Assembly: GCA_946894095.1 (NCBI GenBank)
Contig: OX335653.1
Coordinates: 9,987,001 to 10,051,000, forward strand
DNA from: Incurvaria masculella
Taxonomy: Eukaryota > Arthropoda > Insecta > Lepidoptera > Incurvariidae
Reading direction: 5' to 3'
DNA: 64,000 nucleotides
The notes beneath the pieces were generated by a model. That model saw only the letters and a list, made by a program, of their open reading frames with translations, ran no database searches and had not been told where the DNA came from. Of this stretch, positions 4,690 through 63,797 are shown one piece after another; within the stretch, counting starts at the first letter, position 1, and each line of letters starts with the position of its first letter. The position numbers and the translations under genes were made by a program.

Positions 4690-5970
4690 ATAGGTCGGGG
4701 AAAAAGTCTTTTCGCATTATAGTATGTATGAACTTGTAATAAAATCTCTTTGGCTATACTATTTGTATCTGGCTGGTTTTGGTATCATTGAAAGTTTAAA
4801 TTTTGAAGAACATAATTCCATATTCAAATTAGGAAAATGTGTGATTCTCATTTGTTTTTCGTACTGTCAAAATGAGTGAATCTAATGAAGAAATTCGATA
4901 CATTTTAAAATTTTACTACAAAAAAGGTAAAAATGCAACGCAAGCCGCGAAAAAAAATTGCGATGTTTATGCTAGTGCAGTGTCTGTGAGAGTAGCACAA
5001 ATTTGGTTTAAGCGTTTTCGATCTGGAAATTTTGATGTCAAAGATGCACGTCGCTCTGGTCGCCCTATTACGGATAAAATGGATGCCATTTTTGAAAAAG
5101 TGGAGCAAGATCGGCATATCAGTAGTTACGACGTAGCTGAAGAACTAGGAATTGACCACAAAACAGTTTTGGCGCATTTGAAAAAAACTGGGTACACAAA
5201 AAAGCTCGATATTTGGGTACCTCACGAGCTCACTGAAAGAAACCTAATGAACCGTGTACTCATTTGTGATTCTTTATTACGACGTAATGAAACCGAACCA
5301 TTTTTGAAGAAGCTGATAACTGGTGATGAAAAGTGGATCACGTACGACAAGAACGTGCGAAAAAGGTCGTGGTCAAAGGCCGGTCAAGCTTCACAGACTG
5401 TGGCGAAACCCGGGTTAACTCGCAACAAGGTGATGCTGTGTGTGTGGTGGGATTGGAAGGGCATTATTCATTATGAGCTGTTACCACCAGGCAGGACCAT
5501 CGATTCTGAACTCTACTGCGAACAACTGATGAGATTAAAGCAAGAAGTTGAGAGAAAACGGCCGGAATTAATCAACAGAAGGGGTGTGGTTTTTCATCAT
5601 GATAACGCTAGACCTCACACATCTTTAGCCACTCAGCAAAAACTAAGAGAGTTTGGCTGGGAGGTGTTAATGCATCCGCCGTATAGTCCTGACCTTGCAC
5701 CTTCAGATTTCCACCTGTTTAGGTCTCTTCAGAATTCTTTAGGCAGTGTCAGGTTAACATCACGAGAGGACTGCCAAAACCACTTGTCGCGGTATATTGA
5801 TCAGAAGTCCCAATATTTCTATAGCAATGGGATCATGTCCCTACCTACAAGATGGCAAAAAGTTATCGAACAAAATGGTACCTACATACTTTAGTTAAAT
5901 GTAAATAAACCATATTAAAAAATGTTTTGAATTTTCTTAAAAAATGCGAAGAAACTTTTTCCCCAACCAA
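4690..5970 (+). mobile_element. Full-length Tc1/mariner-family element (mariner, DD34D)
   Basis: About 1.28 kb, the normal mariner length. The left end carries GGTCGGGGAAAAAGTCTTTT-type sequence from about 4690. The right end, read in reverse, gives TTGGTTGGGGAAAAAGTTTC; both continue to TTCGCATT. TA occurs on each side (4688-4689 and 5971-5972), the expected target duplication, and the empty site is visible in the related repeat at 45.1 kb. It encodes one uninterrupted transposase. Confidence 0.93.
4872..5894 (+). CDS. Mariner transposase, intact 340 aa
   Basis: Cut-and-paste transposase of the mariner family, acting on the terminal inverted repeats that flank it. The N-terminal half has paired helix-turn-helix segments (about residues 1-110; the linker RSGRP at about 60-64 is typical). 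The catalytic domain has the three acidic residues in TGDEKW, HHDNARPH and SPDLAPSDFHLF, with exactly 34 residues between the second and third Asp, which defines DD34D mariner. WVPHEL precedes the catalytic core, as in other mariners. The length (340) is close to the family norm of about 345, with no stop or frameshift, so the copy is young and possibly functional. The start at 4872 (MSESNEE) is the first ATG after the left end. Subfamily cannot be fixed by eye; it resembles the cecropia/irritans-like group. Confidence 0.95.
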   Translation: MSESNEEIRYILKFYYKKGKNATQAAKKNCDVYASAVSVRVAQIWFKRFRSGNFDVKDARRSGRPITDKMDAIFEKVEQDRHISSYDVAEELGIDHKTVLAHLKKTGYTKKLDIWVPHELTERNLMNRVLICDSLLRRNETEPFLKKLITGDEKWITYDKNVRKRSWSKAGQASQTVAKPGLTRNKVMLCVWWDWKGIIHYELLPPGRTIDSELYCEQLMRLKQEVERKRPELINRRGVVFHHDNARPHTSLATQQKLREFGWEVLMHPPYSPDLAPSDFHLFRSLQNSLGSVRLTSREDCQNHLSRYIDQKSQYFYSNGIMSLPTRWQKVIEQNGTYIL

Positions 5971-23900: not shown

Positions 23901-26900
23901 GACTTTGGGATGAACCAGGGCCCCTACTAGGAACCCTATCGAGTAGAAGCTATCGAGGTGGCGATATTGTATAATACAATATATATAATAAAAAAATATG
24001 GTATTCGTTTGACGGAGAGCGCTGTCGATACCATCTGTCAAATGCATACAATATTTTTGACAGGCGATATCACCACCTCGATCGTGCCTACTAGATAGGG
24101 TTCGTAGTAGGGGCCCTAGTGGGGTCGTTGTAGCATAATTCTAAGATGGAAGAGGCTTACTCATTTTGTTTTGTTTATAAGTTTAAGTACTAGTTTGTCA
24201 ACTATCATAAAAGCCTCGACAGCCCCGGCTCAAGCCGAATTTAGGTTTTGTTACTGTTCCTCATTGCCAAAAACATTCTGGTTTTTGCTTAATAGTATGT
24301 GTTGGTATTGCACTTGGACACAGATGTCGACTGGCACATCGACTTCTAAATTTCACATTAAACAAGGGAACACATTGCATGGGTTTTTTTAATATCTTAG
24401 TCTGACTCTACATTTATGCAAAATGATTACAGGAAATTGAGAAGCCGCGTGGTCTCGCTCGGGAGCTACCCCCTGAGAAGATCCTCGCGGCGCAGCTGTT
24501 GGCCGGAAATCTTTACTTCCTAGTGAAATGGTGGGTTTTTGGAGTGCTTAGGGAATATGTCCGGACTTTTTTATTTTTGACGATTTCAAACTGGACAAAT
24601 CCAGCAAGACTTCATTGAAGGTAGCTGCCATAAAATTTTAGTAGTCTTCACCATTACCGGTTCAAAGTCACAGTGTGTACAAAGCTCCTTTGATTAAAAC
24701 ATGTTTACAACTATTGAAACATGTTTACAACGATTAAACAAAAAAAATCTAAAAAATATTAGTCATCAAGGCTAACTTGTTCCATGAAGATTCAAAATAA
24801 ATTTAGTTTTGGTTTGATTTTTCACTACAGCGTTCGTGATTTACTTTTTTTTACGTGACTTAAACACTGTGCGTTTGGTGATGACGGCAATATGTTTGAA
24901 TGTTCAATCTTTGCGGTCAATGTCCGCAACGCAGATGAAGCGATAAATAAATGTATGTAGGTATAATCTTAAACACTGTGTTAGTAGGAGGCATTCATTA
25001 CGGGAGGATGAATTAGGAGAATTCCAAATTATGGGTATACAGCCGGTGGCGAAATTGGTAGACGCATACACACAAATTAATCTCAGCTATTAACAAGCCT
25101 ACTAGAGAAAAAGCTTGTTTAGATCATTTCATGATAAAGACTAAGCATAGTGTAAGAGCTGCAGTATGCTAAACTAAACTTACCGATCATTCTCCCATAA
25201 TATTAGAAATTGATTTCAATAAACAAACTGTTAGTGAAAACTACAAAGCACAACATACTGTTATCAACTACAAAGATCTCTTACAAAACATAAAACATCA
25301 TGACTGGAGCAATCTTTACCTGATCTCAGACGTTAATCAAGCTTTCGAAACATTTATCAAAACGCTACAAACAATTATTCATGACCACAGTACAGTAAAA
25401 AAGCATGGTAAGTTTAGCGGTATAAAACCGTGGGTTCACTCTGGCCTAGTTAAGTGTATTAGAAAACGGGACTATTTACATCGCCAAGTTTCCAAGCAAG
25501 CTGACAATTTTGGTCTTCGTGATTACTACAAGAGATATAGGAACATCTGCAAAGAAGCAATTTGAAATTCAAAACTTCAATATTACAAAAACCTAATCCA
25601 AGAAAACCTTACTGATGCAAAGAAATGTTGGCGTGCAATAAGGGACTACACAAATGCTAAATCATCAGCAAATACATCTAGTAAGTTGATCGATGAATCT
25701 TCTGAAACCTCTCATAGCATAGTTAACAAAGCGAATGCCTATTTTGTAAAAGTAGGTCAGGATTTAGCTAATAAAATGCAAAAAATACTTAGCCAACCGC
25801 AGACCTTAGATAATACTTTACGTTCGAACACCATTATGCCTTCATTATTTGTCTACCCAACTACACATCAGGAAATATCCCTCATAATTAATGAATTAAA
25901 ACCAAACAGTGCTCCAGGGCACGACGAGATTCGTTCTAAGTTTTTGAAAACTGTAAAAGACTTTATTATTGAACCCTTGGCTTATCTATGCAATCTAAGT
26001 ATATCATCAGCTACATTCCCATTATCACTCAAAGAATCCATAGTCATACCTTTGTTCAAAGCTGGAGTACCCAGCGAAATAAGTAATTACAGACCGATTT
26101 CACTACTCAGCGTAATTTCAAAAGTTTTGGAAAAAATTATGAAACATGGATTAATTACTTTTTTTGAGGCTCATAATATTTTATCTAAAAATCAGTTTGG
26201 TTTTCGTCAGGGCAGAAGCACTGAAGACGCTATACTTAATCTAAGTGAATTTGTCAGTCTTAATCTTGATAAGGGGCATAAATGTGTCGGCATCTTCCTT
26301 GATCTTGCGAAGGCTTTTGATACTGTCAACATAAGCATACTACTTAAAAAATTACAGAATATTGGAGTGAGAGGACTTTGAATTGGTTAAGTGACTATCT
26401 CAATGGGCGTACGCAACGAGTCAAGCTTAATAACGTTATATCGGAACCCTTACCCGTTATGATCGGTGTGCCACAAGGCAGTGTTCTTGGCCCATTGCTC
26501 TTCCTTGTCTACATTAATACCTTATGCAATCTAAGTCTAGTGAAAGGAACAGTAATAACTTTTGCAGATGATACGGTCCTTTTGTTCTCAGGTAACACTT
26601 GGGATGAGGCAAAACAGGATGCTCAAATGGGTTTTAACAGAGCAGCGCATTGGCTTTACTCTAATTTGCTTACCCTAAACAAAAGCAAAACCAAATTTGT
26701 AGCTTTCTCCATCTCCGAAAGAACAGAGCCTGTTGAAAATTTGCGTATCAAGGTGCACGAAGAAAACTGCTACTTTGCTGACGACCAATTATTACCTGCA
26801 AATTGTATCTGCCGAGAGCTAGAGCAGGTACGAGAAATCTCTTATCTGGGGGTAATAGTAGACGAAAATTTAAACTGGAAAGCTCAAATCAACAAACTTG

Positions 26901-29900
26901 CTGGTCGTATACGCAAATTGATTCATTTCTTCGTTGAAGTAAGAGATATTGCAGATGATACTTTAATGCAATCTATTTACTATGCACTCTGTCAGTCTCT
27001 CTTACTGTACGGAATATTGGGTTGGGGTGGAGCCGCAAAGACAATTTTAAATACAGTTGCCAAGGCACAAAAATTGGTATTGAGGGTAATAAACCGGAAA
27101 CCATTCCAATACCCGTCATATAGTTTGTTTAAAGAGTATCATGTGCTGCACGTTAGACAATGTTATATGCAAAAACTGCTGCTTCACTATCACCTATGTA
27201 AAGATGATTTCATTAAACCATTTACCCACTGCACACGACAAGTTACCAGAAATAACTTAGCATCTTTAGCTCTCAAAACAGAATTTCACAGATTTCATTA
27301 CCATTTAGGCCCTAACCTTTATAATAAAATGTCTTTAATATTTAAAGATAAAATTCATAAACAGATAAAATCTGAAATAAGAAAATATTTAATCCAGCTA
27401 GGAAGAGAAGCTTCAGAAAAACTTTTAACTTATTTTTATTAACAAACATTTATATATACCACTCACACACCATATCACACCACAAATACACCATATATAT
27501 TGCGTTACTGGTCTTACTTTTTGATAATTTTTTTAATAAGACTTTGGTTTTAGGTGACTGTTCCTGTATTATTCTTTAATTTAATTTTAGCTTAGTATAG
27601 TACATATCATACTGCAACTTGTTCGTTTTTTTTGTTTGTATAGTATCTATTAACCCTTTTCTTTGGGCAAGTATTTATTGATTACTACGCACATGATTTA
27701 AGCCAAGCGAAAAAAAAACCCGCATGCTTCAACACGGGACTCATAGCGAAGCATTCGGGACACAACCTTTGCGAATGTAGTCAGGCTGATGCTGGACTAC
27801 GACTCGCTCCACGGGTATAACATTTTCTACAGATATTGTAGATGTATAAGAAATGATAATGTATTGTACCTTTATTTGCAAACAAACTTACTTACTTACT
27901 ATACCTTACGGATATGGAACGCGTTACATAAAGATACATAGCTATACGTATACACATGTCTCAACTTGTTCAGCGGAGCTCTTTACCCTTAGGTAGATAA
28001 AGTATTGAACGCTCTTCGTACATCATTATGTATGCTAACATAGATTTTTACAGTTAGAAGTGGCAAACAAAGAGACATTTTCCCATGTTTCATCATATTT
28101 ACCGATTGCAATGACATGGCTCGACAGGAGTGGTTGCGACGAGTTCGACGTAGTGCTGTCGCGCGACCTAAAGTCTGCGCACCCGGAGTTCATGGTGGAG
28201 TACTATGAGCGGCATGAGCCGTGGTGCCGCCCGATCAGCCGCCTGGGGAGAGTACCGAGGGATGCACCCGAGGTGAGTTTCCCGTCGATCGTGATGGTGT
28301 AGTGCGACAGAATCGGCTGTGATGACTTTGACGTGGTTCTGTCATGCGACCTCAAGTCTCTTGACCGCTTGTACTACTTGTAGTAGTCCGAACTCCATGA
28401 ACTCCGGGTTCATGGTGGACTACTACAAATGGTCATGAGCCTTGGTGCCTCTCGCTCTACTGTCTGGAAAAAGTGCCCCACGATGCCCGAGGTAAGTGTC
28501 CTGTCGATTGTGATGGCGTGGTGCGACAAAAGCGGCTATGCATGGTTCCACCAGTAATATCTGCCTATGGCCGAGGTTAACTGGTCCATCGTTTGTAGTA
28601 AGATTGTTTAGGAGAATCTGAAAAAAATCCTGATGGAAAAGAAAATTATAGAGTAAATATGACAAAGTTTGTGCAACGACCAAATGCGAGCCATCCTCTG
28701 GTCTGTGTCAATCCTTAAGGTGCTCTGTCTTCCTCATCACTGATATAACGTTTATTTTCGTTGAGAATGCTGGTTCCATTGTTTGGAACCCTGGCGGATC
28801 CAAGATTTAAATTTGGTGGGGCTCAGAGAAAAGACCGACAATTTTTCATTGCAGCTACGACCAGATGGTTTTGGGGGGACGCCCCATAGTTTTGGGGGAG
28901 GCCAGGGGTGCGGGGGCCATGGCGGTTCCACTGGCAGATCCCGGGGGAGGCCAGGGGGGCGGGGGCCATGGCCTCCCCCGGGATCTGCCAGTGGAACCGA
29001 TGTAAAACTGTAGGTCAACTATCTGTGCATAAAAAATCATTAGAGAGTTTTTATCAATGGTGATGATTTAAATTAAATGTCGCCAGTTGCCTCCGGAGCC
29101 GGTGGCTGAGGAACCGAGGGCTGATGCAGAGGTAGAAGCGGGGGAGGATACCGAGGCATCGGCGGCGGAGGGGAATTTGGCGCCTGACAGCATGGAGCAG
29201 GAAGCGCCGCAGCAACGTAACTATACACATACCGCTCTCAATTTTATTTTATCGAACTGGACATGGGTGCCTAATACCACACCTACTGTCATGATTTTAG
29301 CCTCACACACCAAAGGGGAACTAGGTGTTATGTCAGGATCAGACCTTCCTTACATTGCATGGCCAAATTAACCTGGATGGGAAAAATGAGACAATTTTAA
29401 TTGCCGCTAGTAGCATTTAATTGAATGCCATACAAGTTAGTATTAATCCCCTGAAGGAGACCTAAATTTTTACAGCGAATATGAACCGCTGCAAGCCCAA
29501 ACACTCGAAATTTCACCCATTCATAACCCGACTGCACCTACCGTTGCCGTAGGCATCGGTGGCGTTTAGGGTGATGTGCTCTGTACGTTTTGATCATAAG
29601 TTCGAGTTATCATTTTTTGTATAGATGACTAAGCTTGTTTAGAGCATCCCCAAACAAAAACTAATTCTGATCAATGTTAGGGTTTTTTTTAATTTTAAAT
29701 CATCATTTTTAATTATTTTTTTGCCATTTTGGCAAAATAATTCTTTTTAAAATGTTTTCATAACTTTACCAACTTTTCTCCTGTTTGACTGCCTAATACT
29801 ATAAATAGTATGCTGTTACTTAACAAATCTATTTACCCACTACATGTAATTTGGTAGATAATTATAATCACTACATTTTGATAATGCCTATCTGCCTATC

Positions 29901-55938: not shown

Positions 55939-58900
55939 ATGGCTACACGAAAAAACATGAGCCATGTTAGCGCGTGCGCAGCGTGCCTCGCCACCGACGT
56001 GCGCATGCGCAGTATGAGTGACGCCGGCCTTCTGGAGGTGTATGGATTGCTCACCGGACGACAGGTGGGATGGGTGATATTTTTTACTGCAGCTAGATAG
56101 GTTAACAACTCCTACAAACCACACCATCATATTTACCTATGAGTAAGTTGCTTTATTATCATGTGAGCGGGTACGAGAAAATAGGGAAGTAAATATCAAA
56201 TATTGTCCTTATTCTTTCATCCAGATCATTGTTACCTTGCTCATTAACGTACGGACCTGGCATGGCACCTCATTCCTTTAGAAATGCGGTGTGTTGGACT
56301 AATGTCATGGCAGTGGGTTGTGGTTGAGCCATCCATGTGCAGCTACATAAAAAAAATGACACAGAAATATATGTCCTACCCGTGGCCTCCCAGTGCATAT
56401 CACCATGCCCACTTAGCAATAGTGTACAAAAGTAAAGTGCATATTCGAGGGCTTGACAAAAAAAGGAATATTAGAGATTTAGGGTTTTATTTGAGTATTT
56501 TTAGCATTTATTCGATTTCTGACTGAATACATGGTTTTCATGAGTTTTTGAAACAAAAAAAGCGGCTGTTTCAATTACACAGCCACCATCACCGCCCGCC
56601 ATAACTCCCCGGGACTAAATGTAATGACAAAGGCCGGGCGCGGTAATAGTTTTCCTGAATTTCCTGACCATGCTGTTTTCACTACATGCATTTTTATCTA
56701 TCTACAATTTGGTACAAACTAGTACTATTGTGCATTATTTAGTCGTAAAAATGTTATATTGTTTTGTTGAAATCATTTCCCATGTCGTTTGTAAATAATT
56801 TAATAGATAACATTAGCCAGCCAGTGGCTATATTGACGATAAAAAACTATTTGTGTCCTAAAGCCTGAGTCCCCTAATAGATAACTCCACTTTCAAGCGT
56901 TAGCGTTATGAGATAACACAAAATTGTACCAAATTTTGTGTTATCTCATAGAGCTAACTCTAGGCTTCTGTTTTTGTATCGTAATGTGCTCCCGTTTTTT
57001 GAAGATTCCATGTTTTGGATGCAAACAAAATATGGTGATTAAATGCGACTGGTTTGGGTATTTTCCTTCAGTGGAAGACACACATGTTAAGGAAAAATGG
57101 CGGAAAAGATGTATAAAGATTTTACGAGTGTTGAGAAAATTAAAACTAATGTTACGTATAAATTAAGTTACACCCTTATATGTAGGTCTCATTTAATCTT
57201 ATCAACTTAAAAATGAATCCAAAGAAAGTGCTTCATGAATACTCTATGAACGAATGACAACTGCACATATTAATAATTTTGTGATAAATTTTTCTTGCAC
57301 TATTTGTAAGAATTGTATCTAGGTTTTTATGGTTGGCCTAAAGTAAAAAAATATAAAGTGAATATTTCCAGGTAGCGGATGAAATACCCCAGCGGCTATG
57401 CTGGGAGTGTGCGGCTCTTCTGAACAAATTCAATTTGTTTAGACGCAAGTGTGAGCGAGCTTATCTTCTGCTTCAGGATATATACAGCACAAATAATGAG
57501 GTTAGCACTGACCTACCATTTATGTCTAGAGTAGTATATTAAACTTCACTTTGTAAAAAATATATATAAAGTAATATGTCTGCAGAATCATCTGTAAAGC
57601 AATTCATGTGTCTATTCATTGAAAGTAAACGGATGTAAAAATAACTACATATTAAAAAGTGTCATGCACCCTTATGCTGAGATTCATAGACATTACTCGT
57701 TCTTGGTTTAGCCAAAGTATGGCTTCCGACTGTCAGTTTTCACAAAAAAAATATGGAACAAATGTCGAATTTGACAGTCAAAAGTCATACTTTGGCTAAG
57801 CTAAGCATTAGTAAGGTCTATGAATCTCAGCTTTAGTTTTGTACTAGCTTGCAAATTTTTCACGGGCACTGCGTCTACCAATTCCACCTGTTCCTTGACC
57901 CATTACAGAATTATCCCTCACTCAATCGGTCCTTAATCAATTCCTCTTACTAATAATGTATTTTAAAACTTTCATTTTGTATCTTTTGATTTACTACAAC
58001 TATTGATTGAATTTTCAGGTGACTAAAGGAAACATACGGGCGATCGATAGATTACATCACAACCTATCTTCATGCTACGTGATTTCAGAAATGTTTGTTT
58101 GTTATTCAGATAATATCGGTCTTCATTCAATTAAATCGGAACCGCATAGCCAAGATTTGAGCATAAATGTGAATTCTGTATTGCAACTTTGTAAAATTGA
58201 AGTGGAATTGATAAAAGACAAGGAATTACTATTAAAATCAGAGCCTCAATTGGAAACAAATGAAATTTCTGCAATTAATGCTGAAAGTGTGCCCCGTCAC
58301 TGTGAAGAGATATTGAAAAAACGAAAAAGAAGAAAAGGATTGCATCATGTTAAACAGGAGATGGTCAAAAAGACAGAAAAGGCGAAAAATAAATCTAAAG
58401 TAAAACATGCTGGGAGTTTCAATGCTACGAGAGTTTCGCTCACTCAGGTTTGTTTTTATTATTAGGTAATGTAAATATATTTACTTCTATAGATGTGTAA
58501 AAGGTGGCTTTATAAAATGGGGGTACTGTTTCGTGGGTAATACATAAATAAAGAAAATATATTGGAGTTTTTTTTATGTAACTGGACATGGACAGCTAGT
58601 ACCATGAATAATATCAATGTGGAGACAGTAGGTCATGATATTAGCTCAACACACCACATGGGAACTAGGTGTGCGGGCAAAAAGCTAGTTACATATGTCA
58701 CAGCTTTGTCTGTCAAGATTGTTGCAAACAGTGGCAACTGTTACAGGAGCAAATGATGCAGTCGGTGCGCGACCGGGAGTCGTCCAAGGGCTACCGCGCG
58801 GCACGGCACAAGTGCACACTCTGCTTCAAGGGATTCATGGAGGAGAAAACGTTCAACAACCACATGCGTCTGCACGATCCTGTGAGTCGAAATGAATAAC

Positions 58901-61900
58901 TGTGCCGTGTGGATTCCTATTAAATAAAGTAAAAAAAATAAGTAAAAAACATTTATTGAGTAATAATGTACATACAATAGGGAACAGTAGACTGTGCTGC
59001 AGAGAGCAGTAGACTGTTGATTTTTACACGGGTAAAGTTAGAGCAGTTTTTAATGTACTAGTTCAGTTACATTGTTATTACATTATATTTATTTTCTACT
59101 ACCTGTTAATACTATGAAGTCCAAACAAACAAAATAAGTCAGAGAAACTATAAAACTACATCAAAAATAGTAGGTACCTAAGCGTTGTGTTTTATTACAA
59201 GAATATTTGAAGAAGAGTGTGTTTTGTGTGTAAGGGTGTTAGGTTATTTGTGAGAGTGTGGTTGTATTTGTTATGCTGTATACGTGTGTAGTTATATGTT
59301 TCATGCATTTTTAGCACCTGCTCAGTTTCATCTTATTTTTTTATGTATATTGGTTGTAGTGTAAATATAATACAAGTTGTTCCACTGTAGTTATTCCCGT
59401 GCATGTCGTAAGAGGTGACGTAGGCCTTGGTCTCATTGAGACGTCGGACGGGCTTGCCACGTTAAGCCCATTTGGGTTATGCAATCGCATTGTATTAAAG
59501 ATGGTCAGAGCTGCAATGAAAATCCATCCAGTCCAATGTAGCCATGCTCATGTAAAGAGAAGGCCCTGTCCTCTAGTTCCTTTGGGAATGTGATGGGTTA
59601 GACTAATGCAACCACAGTACAGTGTAGTGTGATATTAGTCATGCATACCATAGAATACATTTTTTTCCATAAAAGTAAGAAGAAGATATTATTTAGTGAT
59701 CACAAAAATATGGTGAGACCTGAGCTCAATATTAATACATTTTCATTACCTCATTTATTGTTTATGACAAGGCTCGCCATATTGCTGATATGTTATGATA
59801 AAACAATTTGGGTTGCTTCTGTCTAGGGGCCCCTCGTAAATCTGTAAGCATTTGCAAACAATACAGTTAACTTAGACTTGTAGATGTTGAAAATAATTTC
59901 AGAGAAGTTTTATTGCCAGTTTTTCTTCCCTGCGATTTTTTCAGTAGCTAATTATTAAATATGACAAATCCGAGTGTAGTGTGCTAACTATGAATGATGA
60001 ATAAACAATCAACAAAGATTAGCAGTGCTATAAAAACCACTCGACTATGGCGCCATTTGTTGACAACTATGTATCATCGCAGGTGTCCGGCGATCTGCAG
60101 TGTGACATCTGCAAGGTGCGCCTGCGCAGCCGCCTCCAGGCGCACTGCCACATCAGCGGCTCCCACATGATGCAGTACCGGTGTAAGCTCTGTCCGAGCG
60201 TCGCCAGCAATAAGTAAGTTGACATTCATATCATCACAGGCTTTGGGCGATCTGCAGTGCGACATCTGCAAGGTACATCAACACAGCCGCCTCCAGGCTC
60301 ACTGCCACATCAGCGGCTCCCACATGATGCAGTACCGGTGTAAGCTCTGTCCGAGTGTCGCCAGCAATAAGCAAGTTGATTTTAATATCATCGCAGGCTT
60401 TGGGCGACCTATAGTTAACATCTGCAAGGTGCGTCTGAGCAGCCGCCTCCAGGCATACTACCACTTCGGCGGCTCCCACATGTTGCAGTACTGGTGTAAG
60501 GTCTGTCCGAGCATCGCCAGCAATAAGTAAGTTGATATTACTATCATTGTAGGCATTGGGCAATCTGCAGTGCGACATGTGCAAGGTACATCTACACAGC
60601 CGGCTCCAGACGCACTGCCACATCAGCGGCTCCCACATGTTGCAGTACCGGTGTAAGCTCTATCTGAGCGTCGCCAGCAATAAGTAAGTTGACATTAATA
60701 TCATCGCAGGCTTTGGGTGACCCACAGTTCAACATATCCAAGGTGCGCCTGCGCAGCCGCCTCCAGGCACACTTCCACTTCGGTGGCTCCGACATGTTGC
60801 AGTTCCGGTGTAAGCTCTGTCCAAGCATCGCCAGAAATAAGTAAGTTGACATTACTCTCATTGTAGGCGTTGGGCAATCTGCAGTGCGATATCTGCAAGG
60901 CCTGCGCGGCCACCTCCAGGCGCACTGCCATATTAGCGGGTCCCTCATGATAAAGTACCGCGTAACCTGTTTATGCTCGTTTTCACCATCTTCAGCTACA
61001 AAAATCCCAAAGTTATTATTATTATTATGTATATATTTAATTTCACGCAATATTTACACTATTTTTACATATCACAGAAACATATAAAAATACTATGAAT
61101 AAACGGTATCTTCACCATCGGTGGCGAGAGGGGGCCTCCTCCCGGTGGCGCAGGCCGTGGTGGCGGCGCTCTCCGGGACAGTAAGACTTGTCACATGGGA
61201 TTTTTGTCGAAAACCTTCAGCAATAATGAAAATTACTAAACAATTAAATAATTTTCATTTTGCGAAAATTTTCGACATCCGTTACATGTGACAGCTGACC
61301 CTAGACCTTTTATTTATTATTATTATTATTGATAGTATACACTAGCACCTTTAAGCTTATACGTGTACTTTAAATTTAGATATTTTGAGTGCACTTCTAC
61401 TAATATTATTGTGTTTTTAGTTAAGTTTAATATTATTAAGGTCTTTGTCTAACTGGTTCTTAAAACCATTTACTGTGATAGCACTAATCACTTCTTGAGG
61501 CAATTTATTCCAGGAGTCCACCACTCTGTTTGAAAGAAAGTACTTCCTTGGGTTTGAATTAAACCTGGTTTGATTAAGCTTTAGCTCATTTAAATATGCA
61601 ATGTAACCGCACGTCAACTATTGCATTTAAGGTAGCTGGAGGTGGTGAAAAAGGGGTGAATCTGTTACCATGAGGTTCGGTAAGATCGCTATGTATGTTT
61701 CAAGCTGCCGTCTCGAGTACCCAGGTATCACAACAGGATATTCACAAGGCTTGTGGCGTTTTTTAACCGACTTCAAAAAAAGGAGGAGGTTATCAATTCG
61801 TCTGTATGTTTTTTTTTTTTTTGTTTTTTTTGTTTTTTTTTTTATGTTTGTTACCTCATAACTTTTGCCTGGGTGAACCGATTTTGATGATTATTTTTTT

Positions 61901-63797
61901 AAATGATAGCTAGTGCTTCCCAAGTGGTCCCATTTTAATTTGGTTAAGTTCTGACAATGATATCCATGAGAAAATCATAAAAGTCTTAAATTTGTATTAA
62001 GATGTGCGCGACAAATGGACGAATAACTCAATATAACGCCAACCGATTTCGGTGATTCTTTTTTTATTGGAAAGGACGTGTACAAATTAGTAAGTTTACT
62101 TCAGATTCACTAAAAATAAACAAATAAAAAAACAAATTTAACAAAAAAAATAACCGACTTCAAAGGAAAATCACTGAAAAGTAAAAAATAATTTTCATTT
62201 TTGTAGTTACGATTTCTGTAATTTTTTGAGTCGGTGTCAGCCAAGGTTAGGTTAGGTTAGGTTAGGTTAGGTTAGGTTAGGTTAGGTTAGGTTCTCTTGA
62301 TTGGCGCAGCGGGTGCCCGGCTGACGCCGACTCAAAAAATTACAGAAATCGTAACTACAAAAATGAAAATTATATTTTTTCTTTTTAGTGATTTTCCTTT
62401 GAAGTCGGTTATTTTTTTTGTTAAATTGGTTTTTTTTTTTCCTTTTTTTGCATATCATAGAAAATTCGTTTGTTCTTTTGGATTTTTATGGTGATCCGTA
62501 TAATCAGCATTCGGATGATCGACCTTCTACTGTGTATGTAACACTGCATGTATGTAACGCATGTATCCTGCCAGGATAGCTTGAAAAGGGATGGCTGTTG
62601 TTATGTTGCAGAGCTGCCGCTAAGAAGCATTACGATTGGCATAGAGGAGTCACATATACTTGTGATATCTGTGGAGTAGTTTCAACGTAAGTATTATATG
62701 CTTTAATATTTTACGAATAAACAAATGTAAGCATAACAGCATGTACAAGTTGTTTTCTTAAGCGAGTTCCGGACGAATCTGATCCATGCAAAATTTCTTG
62801 TATACACCACACAAATAGTAATGGACTTTGAGTTACTAATTATATTTACTACTACTAATATTTTAATGCAAGTCGGCTGCGACCACAACAAGAAAACGCA
62901 CTAGGTGTGCTACCGTACCGCAGTGTGCTCTTGTATTTCAAAGCTGTAATAATCCCTCAGCAAGCTGACCACGCACCTGTCGCACGTCCGCATCAAGCAC
63001 CCCTCGCAGCACATCTGCGGCGCCTGCGGAGACTCCTTCGTGAGTCAGCGCGGTCTCTGCGACCACACCAAGAGGATGCATGAGGTAATAGTGTGCTCTT
63101 GAATTTCAAAGTTGAAACAGTGCCTCATCAATTGGCACCTATCGCAAGTTCGTATCGAGCACCCTTCGCAAGGGGGGGGGGGACCCCTTCGTGAACCAGT
63201 CCAAACCTTTGCAACCACTCCAAGAAGGTGCTTGAGGTGATAGTCCATAACGAATAGAAGCGAAGTTACGTTCATGGTTGGCGATGTTTAGCTCCACGCT
63301 AGGACATTTTTGTATTTACCTACTGATATGAATTGCTCTCCTCATATTTGTATTCATAGCCAGGGTGTTAATGGACTTATGGTCCAGGTATGTTTAAAGC
63401 AAAAAAGGTGGACACAGGTTGTCGATTCTTGGGGCGCACCAGGGTGAGAATAGAACTAATTAGAGAGGATTTCGCCCCGCCAAGGTTCTAGTAATTTGGC
63501 AGTACCTATACCCGGATGTTCTGTCTGGACAGCGTGTGCAGGTGGCAGAGGGAGCAGGCGCATTCTGTGCTGCTTGCGACGTGCGTTTCGCCTCAGAGCA
63601 GATCTACACAAGGCACCTCATTATATCGCCGCGGCACGCTCTCGATCGCTCCGCCATTCCGTGAGTGCATGAATTCTCTCTATGCTCACTTATGTTTTGC
63701 TATCGTGTCCTATTCTAGGTTCCGAGTACTCAAACGTAAGAAAGTTCTGACCATTGCGAACAACTTTTCTCAAGAGAGAAAGTACAAATGTGTCTGA
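55939..63797 (+). CDS. ZAD-type C2H2 zinc-finger protein, 9 exons
   Basis: Probable nuclear DNA-binding protein of the insect ZAD zinc-finger class. Exons 55939-56064, 57372-57500, 58019-58447, 58747-58881, 60083-60213, 62612-62686, 62961-63084, 63542-63660 and 63719-63797 join in phase to 448 residues. The ZAD zinc site is C13/C16 (exon 1) with C52/C55 (LCWEC, exon 2). A basic linker in exon 3 (KKRKRRKG) suggests nuclear import. Fingers: HKCTLCFKGF..NNHMRLH, LQCDICKV..LQAHCHISGSH, YRCKLCPS..KKHYDWH, YTCDIC..HVRIKH, HICGACGDSF..DHTKRMH and FCAACDVRFAS..RHLIISPRH. The last exon ends abruptly in KYKCV, a truncated finger, which is odd; the 58-base intron before it is short. Exon 5 is the first of six tandem copies, and exon 7 is also duplicated. 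No family-level target can be inferred. Confidence 0.9.
56250..56350 (+). repeat. SINE tail fragment
   Basis: GACCTGGCATGGCACCTCAT, AAATGCGGTGTGTTGGACTA, ATGTCATGGCAGTGG, CCATCCATGTGCAGCTACAT. Zinc-finger gene intron 1. Confidence 0.65.
56890..56965. repeat. Palindrome around TTATGAGATAACACAAAATT
   Basis: Arm TATGAGATAACACAAAATT with its inverse AATTTTGTGTTATCTCATA across a GTACCA spacer, extended outward imperfectly (AGCGTTAGC / GCTAACTCT). A compact MITE or remnant. Confidence 0.75.
57672..57832. mobile_element. MITE 'ATGCTGAGATTCATAGACG', copy 2
   Basis: ATGCTGAGATTCATAGACAT, TACTCGTTCTTGGTTTAGCC and the inverse arm at the other end, with a longer centre that is itself palindromic (CCGACTGTCAG, TTTGACAGTC). 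Zinc-finger gene intron 2. Confidence 0.85.
58578..58680 (-). repeat. SINE tail fragment
   Basis: AACTGGACATGGACAGCTAG, GTCATGATATTAGCTCAACA, CACCACATGGGAACTAGGTG. It ends 66 bases before exon 4 of the zinc-finger gene. Confidence 0.6.
58882..60082 (+). other. Zinc-finger gene intron 4, with a SINE copy
   Basis: A SINE body/tail copy lies at about 59440-59640 (AAGCCCATTTGGGTTATGCA, GCAATGAAAATCCATCCAGT, CCTCTAGTTCCTTTGGGAAT). The rest is AT-rich. Confidence 0.55.
60240..60370 (+). pseudogene. Zinc-finger exon 5, copy 2 (open; possible alternative exon)
   Basis: 131 bases, same length and phases as exon 5, fully open: ALGDLQCDICKVHQHSRLQA, then HCHISGSHMMQYRCKLCPSV. All zinc ligands are kept. 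Acceptor CATCACAG is good; the donor is AATAA/GCAAGT, a GC donor. It could replace exon 5 but cannot be added to it, because 131 is not a multiple of three and only 26 bases separate the copies. Confidence 0.8.
60397..60526 (+). pseudogene. Zinc-finger exon 5, copy 3 (broken)
   Basis: Acceptor CATCGCAG, donor AATAA/GTAAGT. Codon six is TAG (GACCTATAG), followed by a one-base deletion. It also has Cys to Tyr at the finger's Cys before the first His (TACTACCAC). 130 bases. Confidence 0.9.
60553..60683 (+). pseudogene. Zinc-finger exon 5, copy 4 (open, second finger impaired)
   Basis: 131 bases, open, good acceptor (CATTGTAG) and donor (GTAAGT): ALGNLQCDMCKVHLHSRLQT, HCHISGSHMLQYRCKLYLSV. The second finger's CKLC has become CKLY, so one zinc ligand is gone. 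Confidence 0.85.
60710..60840 (+). pseudogene. Zinc-finger exon 5, copy 5 (open, first finger lost)
   Basis: 131 bases without a stop, splice sites intact, but the first finger's cysteines are replaced: QFNISKV for QCDICKV. HFHFGGSD replaces HCHISGSH. The second finger CKLC is kept. Confidence 0.85.
60867..60961 (+). pseudogene. Zinc-finger exon 5, copy 6 (truncated)
   Basis: Starts ALGNLQCDICK after CATTGTAG. A deletion of about 8 bases after CAAGG shifts the frame to a TGA near 60949, and similarity ends at AAAGTACCGCG. Confidence 0.88.
61183..61305. repeat. Imperfect palindromic element
   Basis: ACTTGTCACATGGGATTTTT, GTCGAAAACC and AATGAAAATTAC face ATTTTCATTTTGCGAAAATT, TTCGACATCC, TTACATGTGACAGCTGAC. 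MITE-like, in intron 5. Confidence 0.6.
61311..61625 (-). mobile_element. CR1/L2-like LINE 3' end with (AAT)n tail
   Basis: A minus frame reads LKLNQTRFNSNPRKYFLSNR, VVDSWNKLPQEVISAITVNG, FKNQLDKDLNN, the standard C-terminus of CR1/L2/Jockey-type LINE ORF2, then a stop and a tail ending in six AAT units (61311-61330). Confidence 0.88.
61765..62134 (+). repeat. 'TTAACCGACTTCAAAAAAAGG' lepidopteran repeat
   Basis: TTTAACCGACTTCAAAAAAA, GGAGGAGGTTATCAATTCGT, CTGTATGTTTTTTT, then TGGGTGAACCGATTTTGATG. Widespread in moths and butterflies; its end continues into the palindrome that follows. Confidence 0.75.
62135..62427. repeat. 108-bp inverted repeat enclosing nine TTAGG telomeric units
   Basis: Arms 62135-62242 and 62319-62427 (AACCGACTTCAAAGGAAAAT, GTAGTTACGATTTCTGTAAT, TTTTTTGAGTCGG and inverse) differ at only a few bases. 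The loop holds GTTAG x9 at 62246-62290, the canonical insect telomere unit TTAGG. Confidence 0.92.
62876..62903 (+). pseudogene. Remnant of zinc-finger exon 7, upstream copy
   Basis: GGCTGCGACCACAACAAGAA, AACGCACTAG/GTGTG parallels the end of exon 7 (CTCTGCGACCACACCAAGAG, GATGCATGAG/GTAATAG). The following intron text AGTGTGCTCTTGTATTTCAA is also shared. CATGAG has become CACTAG. Confidence 0.75.
63129..63236 (+). pseudogene. Decayed copy of zinc-finger exon 7, downstream
   Basis: TGGCACCTATCGCAAGTTCG, TATCGAGCACCCTTCGCAAG parallels ACGCACCTGTCGCACGTCCG, CATCAAGCACCCCTCGCAGC. The finger's CGGCGCCTGCGGA is replaced by a run of about 12 G. The acceptor is CTCAT instead of CTCAG; the donor GAG/GTGATAG remains. 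Confidence 0.85.

Follow-up and report, generated by a model that had tools for sequence, protein, structure and literature searches.

Exon 5 of a ZAD-C2H2 zinc-finger gene is present in six tandem copies in the stretch of DNA analysed here (the window: 64,000 nucleotides, C13:9987001-10051000 of a 552-Mb genome in 31 contigs). We hold with good confidence that the array is a decayed product of exon duplication in which copy 1 is the working exon. The initial annotation had taken the array for a cluster of mutually exclusive exons. The geometry of such a cluster was found, but decayed copies, neutral private changes, the lack of a docking site and a single exon-5 segment in 13 of 14 homologs spoke against the function. 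The array is most likely a side product of exon duplication and not a switch between protein variants.

The host gene, on the + strand, runs in window coordinates from 55939 to 66551 or further and overruns the window end by 2.5 kb (into locus L002). The gene model comprised 11 exons with consistent phases and 573 codons with 0 stops; no terminal exon was found in this model, which reaches 66551, and the gene has at least 11 exons. The zf-met and zf-C2H2_4 profiles matched above their Pfam cut-offs, and the zf-AD profile was marginal, below its cut-off (E 9.4e-6, 26.2 bits vs 28). With a ZAD domain followed by C2H2 fingers, the predicted protein fits the ZAD-C2H2 class with a marginal zf-AD match; its homologs carry zf-AD. 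The following features of the gene were placed outside the array.

55939..56064, + strand: exon 1, ATG and first half of the ZAD (gene model; zf-AD match)
57372..57500, + strand: exon 2, second half of the ZAD (gene model; tblastn with a Lepidoptera homolog)
58019..58447, + strand: exon 3, linker (gene model)
58747..58881, + strand: exon 4, finger 1 (tblastn with a Lepidoptera homolog and gene model)
62612..62686, + strand: exon 6, completes finger 3 (tblastn with a Lepidoptera homolog and gene model)
62961..63084, + strand: exon 7 (tblastn with a Lepidoptera homolog and gene model)
63090..63244, + strand: decayed tandem duplicate of exon 7 and flanks, 69.8% identical, with an internal deletion and a G run (BLASTN)
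63542..63660, + strand: exon 8 (gene model)
in L002, up to window-equivalent 66551, + strand: exons 9-11 (gene model)

Two observations were made in the introns ahead of the array. Read-through of the exon-4 donor (58882-58928) yields DPVSRNE before a stop, AATAAA was seen by eye about 24 bases beyond, and the Cydia proteins P0007 and P0008 terminate likewise, in HDPVS plus a few residues; a short isoform made by polyadenylation in intron 4 is possible. Between exons 1 and 2, window 57000-57230 holds a fragment that by eye resembles a THAP domain. PF05485 is present in two family homologs (P0011 and P0014), and tblastn with these two proteins printed no match at 57000-57230. Elsewhere in the window, an unbroken 349-codon frame (4845-5894) presumably encodes a mariner-type transposase-like protein, and we take three successive frames (25173-27442) to be LINE reverse transcriptase-like.

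Exon 5 itself is 131 bp long and codes for finger 2 and the first half of finger 3. The gene model gives it an entry phase of 0 and an exit phase of 2, as the initial annotation had read it. Tandem Repeats Finder reported an array at 60072-60960 with a period of 157, 5.7 copies and a score of 1155; a 313-bp dimer unit scored higher (1298). In a BLASTN of the array region against the window, the best shifted self-matches had E 0.0. The earlier description of the array proved exact in its six start positions (60083, 60240, 60397, 60553, 60710 and 60867), in its copy lengths (131, 131, 130, 131 and 131 bases, the sixth truncated) and in its five gaps of 26 bp, and copies 1, 2, 4 and 5 are free of stops in the exon frame. 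The further statement that every copy has its own acceptor and donor held for the acceptors, with AG in 6/6 copies, and failed for the donors. GTAAGT follows copies 1, 3, 4 and 5, GCAAGT follows copy 2 and copy 6 has none, so that GT is kept in 4/5 copies long enough to have a donor.

60083..60213, + strand: copy 1 of exon 5, presumed working; finger 2 and first half of finger 3 (tree, splice scores, ligands)
60214..60239, + strand: gap 1-2, 26 bp, GT...AG
60240..60370, + strand: copy 2, open, ligands kept, Leu14Gln, GC donor
60371..60396, + strand: gap 2-3, 26 bp, GC...AG
60397..60526, + strand: copy 3, 1-bp deletion, stop codon
60527..60552, + strand: gap 3-4, 26 bp, GT...AG
60553..60683, + strand: copy 4, open, Cys37Tyr (finger-3 ligand lost)
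60684..60709, + strand: gap 4-5, 26 bp, GT...AG
60710..60840, + strand: copy 5, open, Cys7Phe, Cys10Ser and His28Asp (finger-2 ligands lost)
60841..60866, + strand: gap 5-6, 26 bp, GT...AG
60867..60961, + strand: copy 6, 4-bp deletion, truncated, no donor

Copy 1 was the sole copy intact in both coding sequence and splice signals, with its zinc ligands kept. Divergence among the copies was 8-30%, and an open frame conceals lesions: copy 4 is without one finger-3 Cys, and finger 2 of copy 5 is without two Cys and one His. Copy 2 was the only extra copy with all six zinc ligands; its Leu14Gln change falls at what we take to be the hydrophobic position ahead of the helix. The stop in copy 3 is TAG. 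The reported variation in fingers 2 and 3 (VRLRSR, VHQHSR, VHLHSR) does exist, but it is confined to finger 2, residues 13-15, ahead of the helix. These V(R/H)(L/Q)(R/H)SR differences presumably lie between the finger-2 Cys pair and the helix, outside the helix contact positions. In the helix, copies 1 and 2 are identical and copy 4 has A20T.

In a tree of the six copies alone, copies 2 and 4 grouped at 83% bootstrap and copies 3 and 5 at 98%. Because the copies pair in this way, the array order reads (1)(2,3)(4,5)(6), and the same grouping together with the better score of the 313-bp unit indicates that the duplicated unit was a pair whose members already differed. The changes D8N, I24F, S25G and V40I are common to copies 3 and 5, and loss of the first Cys is also likely common to both, at a site made ambiguous by the deletion in copy 3. 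As changes common to copies 3 and 5 predate the dimer step, decay had probably begun before that duplication. A cluster of four G-to-A changes spanning nine bases, at exon positions 36, 38, 42 and 44, was seen in copies 2 (60275-60283) and 4 (60588-60596), taking copies 1, 3 and 5 as reference (copy 1 at 60118-60126), and looks like a single conversion or clustered-mutation event.

Copy 1 is in the ancestral state. A family tree was built from copies 1, 2, 4 and 5, 14 single-copy paralogs and the copies of L028 and L029, leaving out array copies 3 and 6, L028 copy 4 and loci L032, L046, L048 and L049, and with the L037 row started one codon late. In this tree the branch of copy 1 was 0.000002, that is, about 0, and copies 2, 4 and 5 had branches of 0.026, 0.063 and 0.18 beyond stems of 0.04. 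In the copies-only tree the branch of copy 1 was 0.031, including changes at its first two codons. Copy 1 begins with VSG and copies 2-6 with ALG; an xSG start is that of most paralogs and homologs.

Splice signals were scored with a small, family-specific matrix of 25 acceptors and 26 donors from the ZAD-C2H2 gene and its paralogs. Copy 1 had the highest acceptor score (11.3), followed by copy 6 (10.7), and each of the two beat 18/25 references. The acceptors of copies 2-5 scored 5.6-8.3, with those of copies 2, 3, 4 and 5 beating 1, 2, 2 and 4 of the 25 references. Donors of copies 1, 3, 4 and 5 had equal scores, above 5/26 references, and the copy 2 donor fell below all 26. Among the five copies having both sites, copy 2 had the lowest scores for acceptor and donor.

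The geometry of the array was as proposed. The 26-nt gaps are too short to splice, below both the minimal intron of 61 bp quoted for D. melanogaster in the available text of PMC2721852 and the 50-bp donor-to-branch-point limit that serves as the steric criterion for mutually exclusive exons in the available text of PMC5740500. Inclusion of two copies breaks the frame (131 nt, phase 0 in and 2 out in the gene model). Joint inclusion is prevented by geometry only, and any copies in use would be used singly; such geometry does not itself demonstrate use. A search for docking/selector pairing between the five gaps and introns 4 and 5 (10 duplex tests, each with 60 shuffles that kept two-base blocks) revealed no convincing common docking site. 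The lowest P, 0.05, was reached in 2/10 tests at different sites, by gap 3-4 at about position 736 of intron 4 and by gap 5-6 at about 115; the best pairing of gaps 2-3 and 4-5 likewise fell near 745, with P of 0.60 and 0.45. We did not take these values to mark a docking site.

Comparison of dN/dS among the copies gave a divided answer: pairwise NG86 ratios were all below 1 (0.15-0.60, with the minimum of 0.15 for copies 1/2), yet the private changes of copies 2-6 stood at a neutral ratio. These private changes, the cleaner measure, comprised 20 nonsynonymous (N) and 9 synonymous (S) changes, a count that omits changes common to two copies and the private 3 N of copy 1 (codons 1-2). The N share expected under four mutation models was 0.65-0.79, and on just 29 changes none was rejected (two-sided p 0.18-0.85). 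Copy 2 had the fewest private changes among the extra copies (2). No purifying selection on the extra copies was found in these changes, which fit neutrality; the NG86 ratios below 1 point the other way. Ratios of 0.19-0.60 were also obtained for pairs involving the plainly dead copies 3 and 6, and values below 1 could reflect early constraint or gene conversion. Neutral evolution of copies 2-6, which the initial annotation had named as telling against a functional reading, is what the private changes indicate.

Proteins matched by the gene's own sequence (8 and 6) were all lepidopteran, and homologs were found in Papilio, Battus, Iphiclides, Parnassius, Colias, Chilo, Diatraea, Choristoneura, Cydia, Achroia and Anticarsia. 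The homolog set consisted of 16 lepidopteran proteins (P0001-P0014, P0051 and P0052), after exclusion of the Papilio ZNF423/521 homologs P0021 and P0023 and of non-lepidopteran hits. They are taken as family members, not demonstrated orthologs; by eye, paralog L046 is nearer the Papilio type than the window gene. The exon-5 segment was present in 14/16, single in 13 of these and double in one (P0001), in a count of annotated proteins that dead unannotated copies in those genomes would escape. P0007 and P0008 stop just short of the segment. In P0001 (Papilio machaon) exons 4-5 are duplicated verbatim, and this duplication is missing from the second P. machaon record, P0002. In P0011 (Anticarsia gemmatalis) the exon 6-7 segment is repeated verbatim in the annotated protein, perhaps a further exon duplication within the family.

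A genome search with exons 5 and 6 gave at least 45 matches (150/165 candidates scored) in 32 clusters. We examined 23 loci from 21/32 clusters, and exon 5 was present in 21/23; at all 16 paralog loci in the splice-site matrix the same 131 bp were flanked by an upstream AG and a downstream GT. The array consists of neighbouring copies with a common splice phase, and its original is homologous to the exons of paralogs, as in a tandemly duplicated exon. Tandem copies were seen at 4/21 exon-5 loci, namely the window array, L028, L029 and L036, with gaps of 4-53 nt. L028 has four copies with a period of 184 and a gap of 53 nt, copies 1-3 near-identical and copy 4 broken. L029 (693-1008 of C24:8001-9700, - strand) has two copies with the same period and gap, and L036 has a partial decayed copy 4 nt past the exon by homology and 11 nt to the next AG. 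Since L028 and L029 have the same gap and are close in the tree, the four loci represent about three events. In L029 neither copy has lost a ligand, and the two are unlike at helix positions +3 and +6, with 5 S and 6 N differences (dN 0.06, dS 0.20); with its two intact copies, L029 appears to be a better candidate for mutual exclusion than the window array. Two exon-5 matches on C11 (L031 and L032), 3.8 kb apart on one strand, are dissimilar. They were taken as separate genes, and a widely spaced duplicate is possible.

Other exons were similarly affected. On the - strand of the window (48438-47740), a 223-bp tektin exon (Pfam PF03148, 1.1e-17) is present in three copies with a period of 251 and two 28-nt GT...AG gaps; copy 1 is open, and copies 2 and 3 have a stop or frame-shifting deletions. 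Prevalence was sampled at fixed positions in 25 stretches, each of 10 kb, of which 20 came from C13 and 5 from other contigs. Seven arrays with a period of at least 80 were found, and exon-like arrays occurred in 2/25 stretches, too few for a rate. One (L003, 8785-9220) lies over an MFS-transporter exon with a period of 182 and a Pfam MFS match. The other (L018, 9189-9999) is a coiled-coil-like open frame with a period of 166, 4.9 copies and GTGAGT; it runs off the locus and had no Pfam match above cut-off. No exon was recognised in the five remaining arrays. We read these results as exons hit repeatedly by short tandem duplication in this genome.

Under the reading that we prefer, exon 5 with about 26 bp of splice-site flank would have undergone short tandem duplication, and a dimer of diverged copies would then have been duplicated again to give the present order. 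Copy 1 would be the original and the one spliced in: it comes first, has a good acceptor and a GT donor, and the spliceosome can take just one copy. Copies 2-6 would be drifting pseudo-exons within intron 5, tolerated because the gaps are too short for an intron and two copies break the frame. In the exon-5 and tektin arrays alike, double inclusion would be harmful and ruled out because the measured gaps are unspliceably short and exons of 131 and 223 bp are not divisible by three. A tolerance filter, by which unspliceable copies are tolerated, may thus be at work, as suggested by few events. Mere duplication bias to short units would give much the same pattern, and detection by Tandem Repeats Finder (limit 500 bp) is itself weighted towards such units.

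A working cluster, in which copies 1, 2, 4 and 5 supply alternative versions of fingers 2 and 3 under steric exclusion with the frame as safeguard, is quite unlikely. It would account for the 26-nt gaps, an exon that is not a multiple of three, the four open frames and the NG86 of 0.15 for copies 1/2, and steric and frame criteria of this kind are applied to human mutually exclusive exons in the available text of PMC5740500. The products argue against it: zinc ligands are lost in copies 4 and 5, copy 2 combines a GC donor with a polar residue at a hydrophobic position, and the helix residues of copies 1 and 2 are the same. Private changes are neutral, and no docking site stood clearly above shuffles. 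A narrower, two-way choice would make copy 2 a minor alternative to copy 1, through noise or weak regulation, with copies 3-6 dead. Copy 2 alone among the extras keeps six ligands and has the fewest private changes, but its splice-site scores are the lowest of the five two-site copies, and we consider this choice very unlikely.

That the array is a satellite or assembly artefact resembling exons, with no exon history, is hardly credible. Tandem arrays of period 99-262 in which no exon was recognised do occur in the window and in the sample; the gene model, however, requires copy 1, which is homologous to exons of paralogs and of other Lepidoptera, and copies that differ by 8-30% are no assembly stutter. 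This reading was rejected from the gene model. A broader proposal, unlikely on present evidence, is that this genome repeatedly makes exon arrays by duplicating an exon with a small flank, between a few bp and some 50 bp long. Such arrays, whose copies can never be spliced together, would be mutually exclusive from birth and selectively near-neutral; most would decay, like the window and tektin arrays, with some, e.g. L029, being recruited. If true, such arrays would be a standing supply of ready-made alternative exons.

As a decayed duplication product, the window array offers a clear series of exon copies that have decayed to different degrees. Taken together with the other arrays, it points to a simple route by which mutually exclusive exons could arise, in which gaps below the minimal intron are tolerated first and the copies are recruitable later. 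This route is testable genome-wide through the gap-length distribution of tandem exon duplicates.

Among the matches listed, the titles and abstract openings of the literature gave no account of this array or of tandem exon copies in lepidopteran ZAD genes. The host resembles known ZAD-C2H2 (zf-AD, PF07776) transcription-factor genes in its N-terminal ZAD over two exons and its C2H2 fingers, and it differs from the annotated homologs in the array, which is not seen in their proteins except for the duplication of exons 4-5 in P0001. The insect mutually exclusive clusters of Dscam, Mhc, 14-3-3zeta and MRP1 are described under a docking/selector model in the available text of PMC6071210. Like them, the array consists of homologous exons that agree in length and phase and cannot be spliced to each other; unlike them, it has cramped gaps of 26 bp and damaged copies, and no docking/selector pairing was found for it. 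Tandemly duplicated exons occur in about 10% of animal genes according to a 2002 survey, as quoted in the available text of PMC9013439. The window array differs from them in its six copies, its dimer higher-order structure, its 26-bp gaps and its mostly damaged copies, and it shares with them head-to-tail copies with splice signals in the intron adjoining the original.
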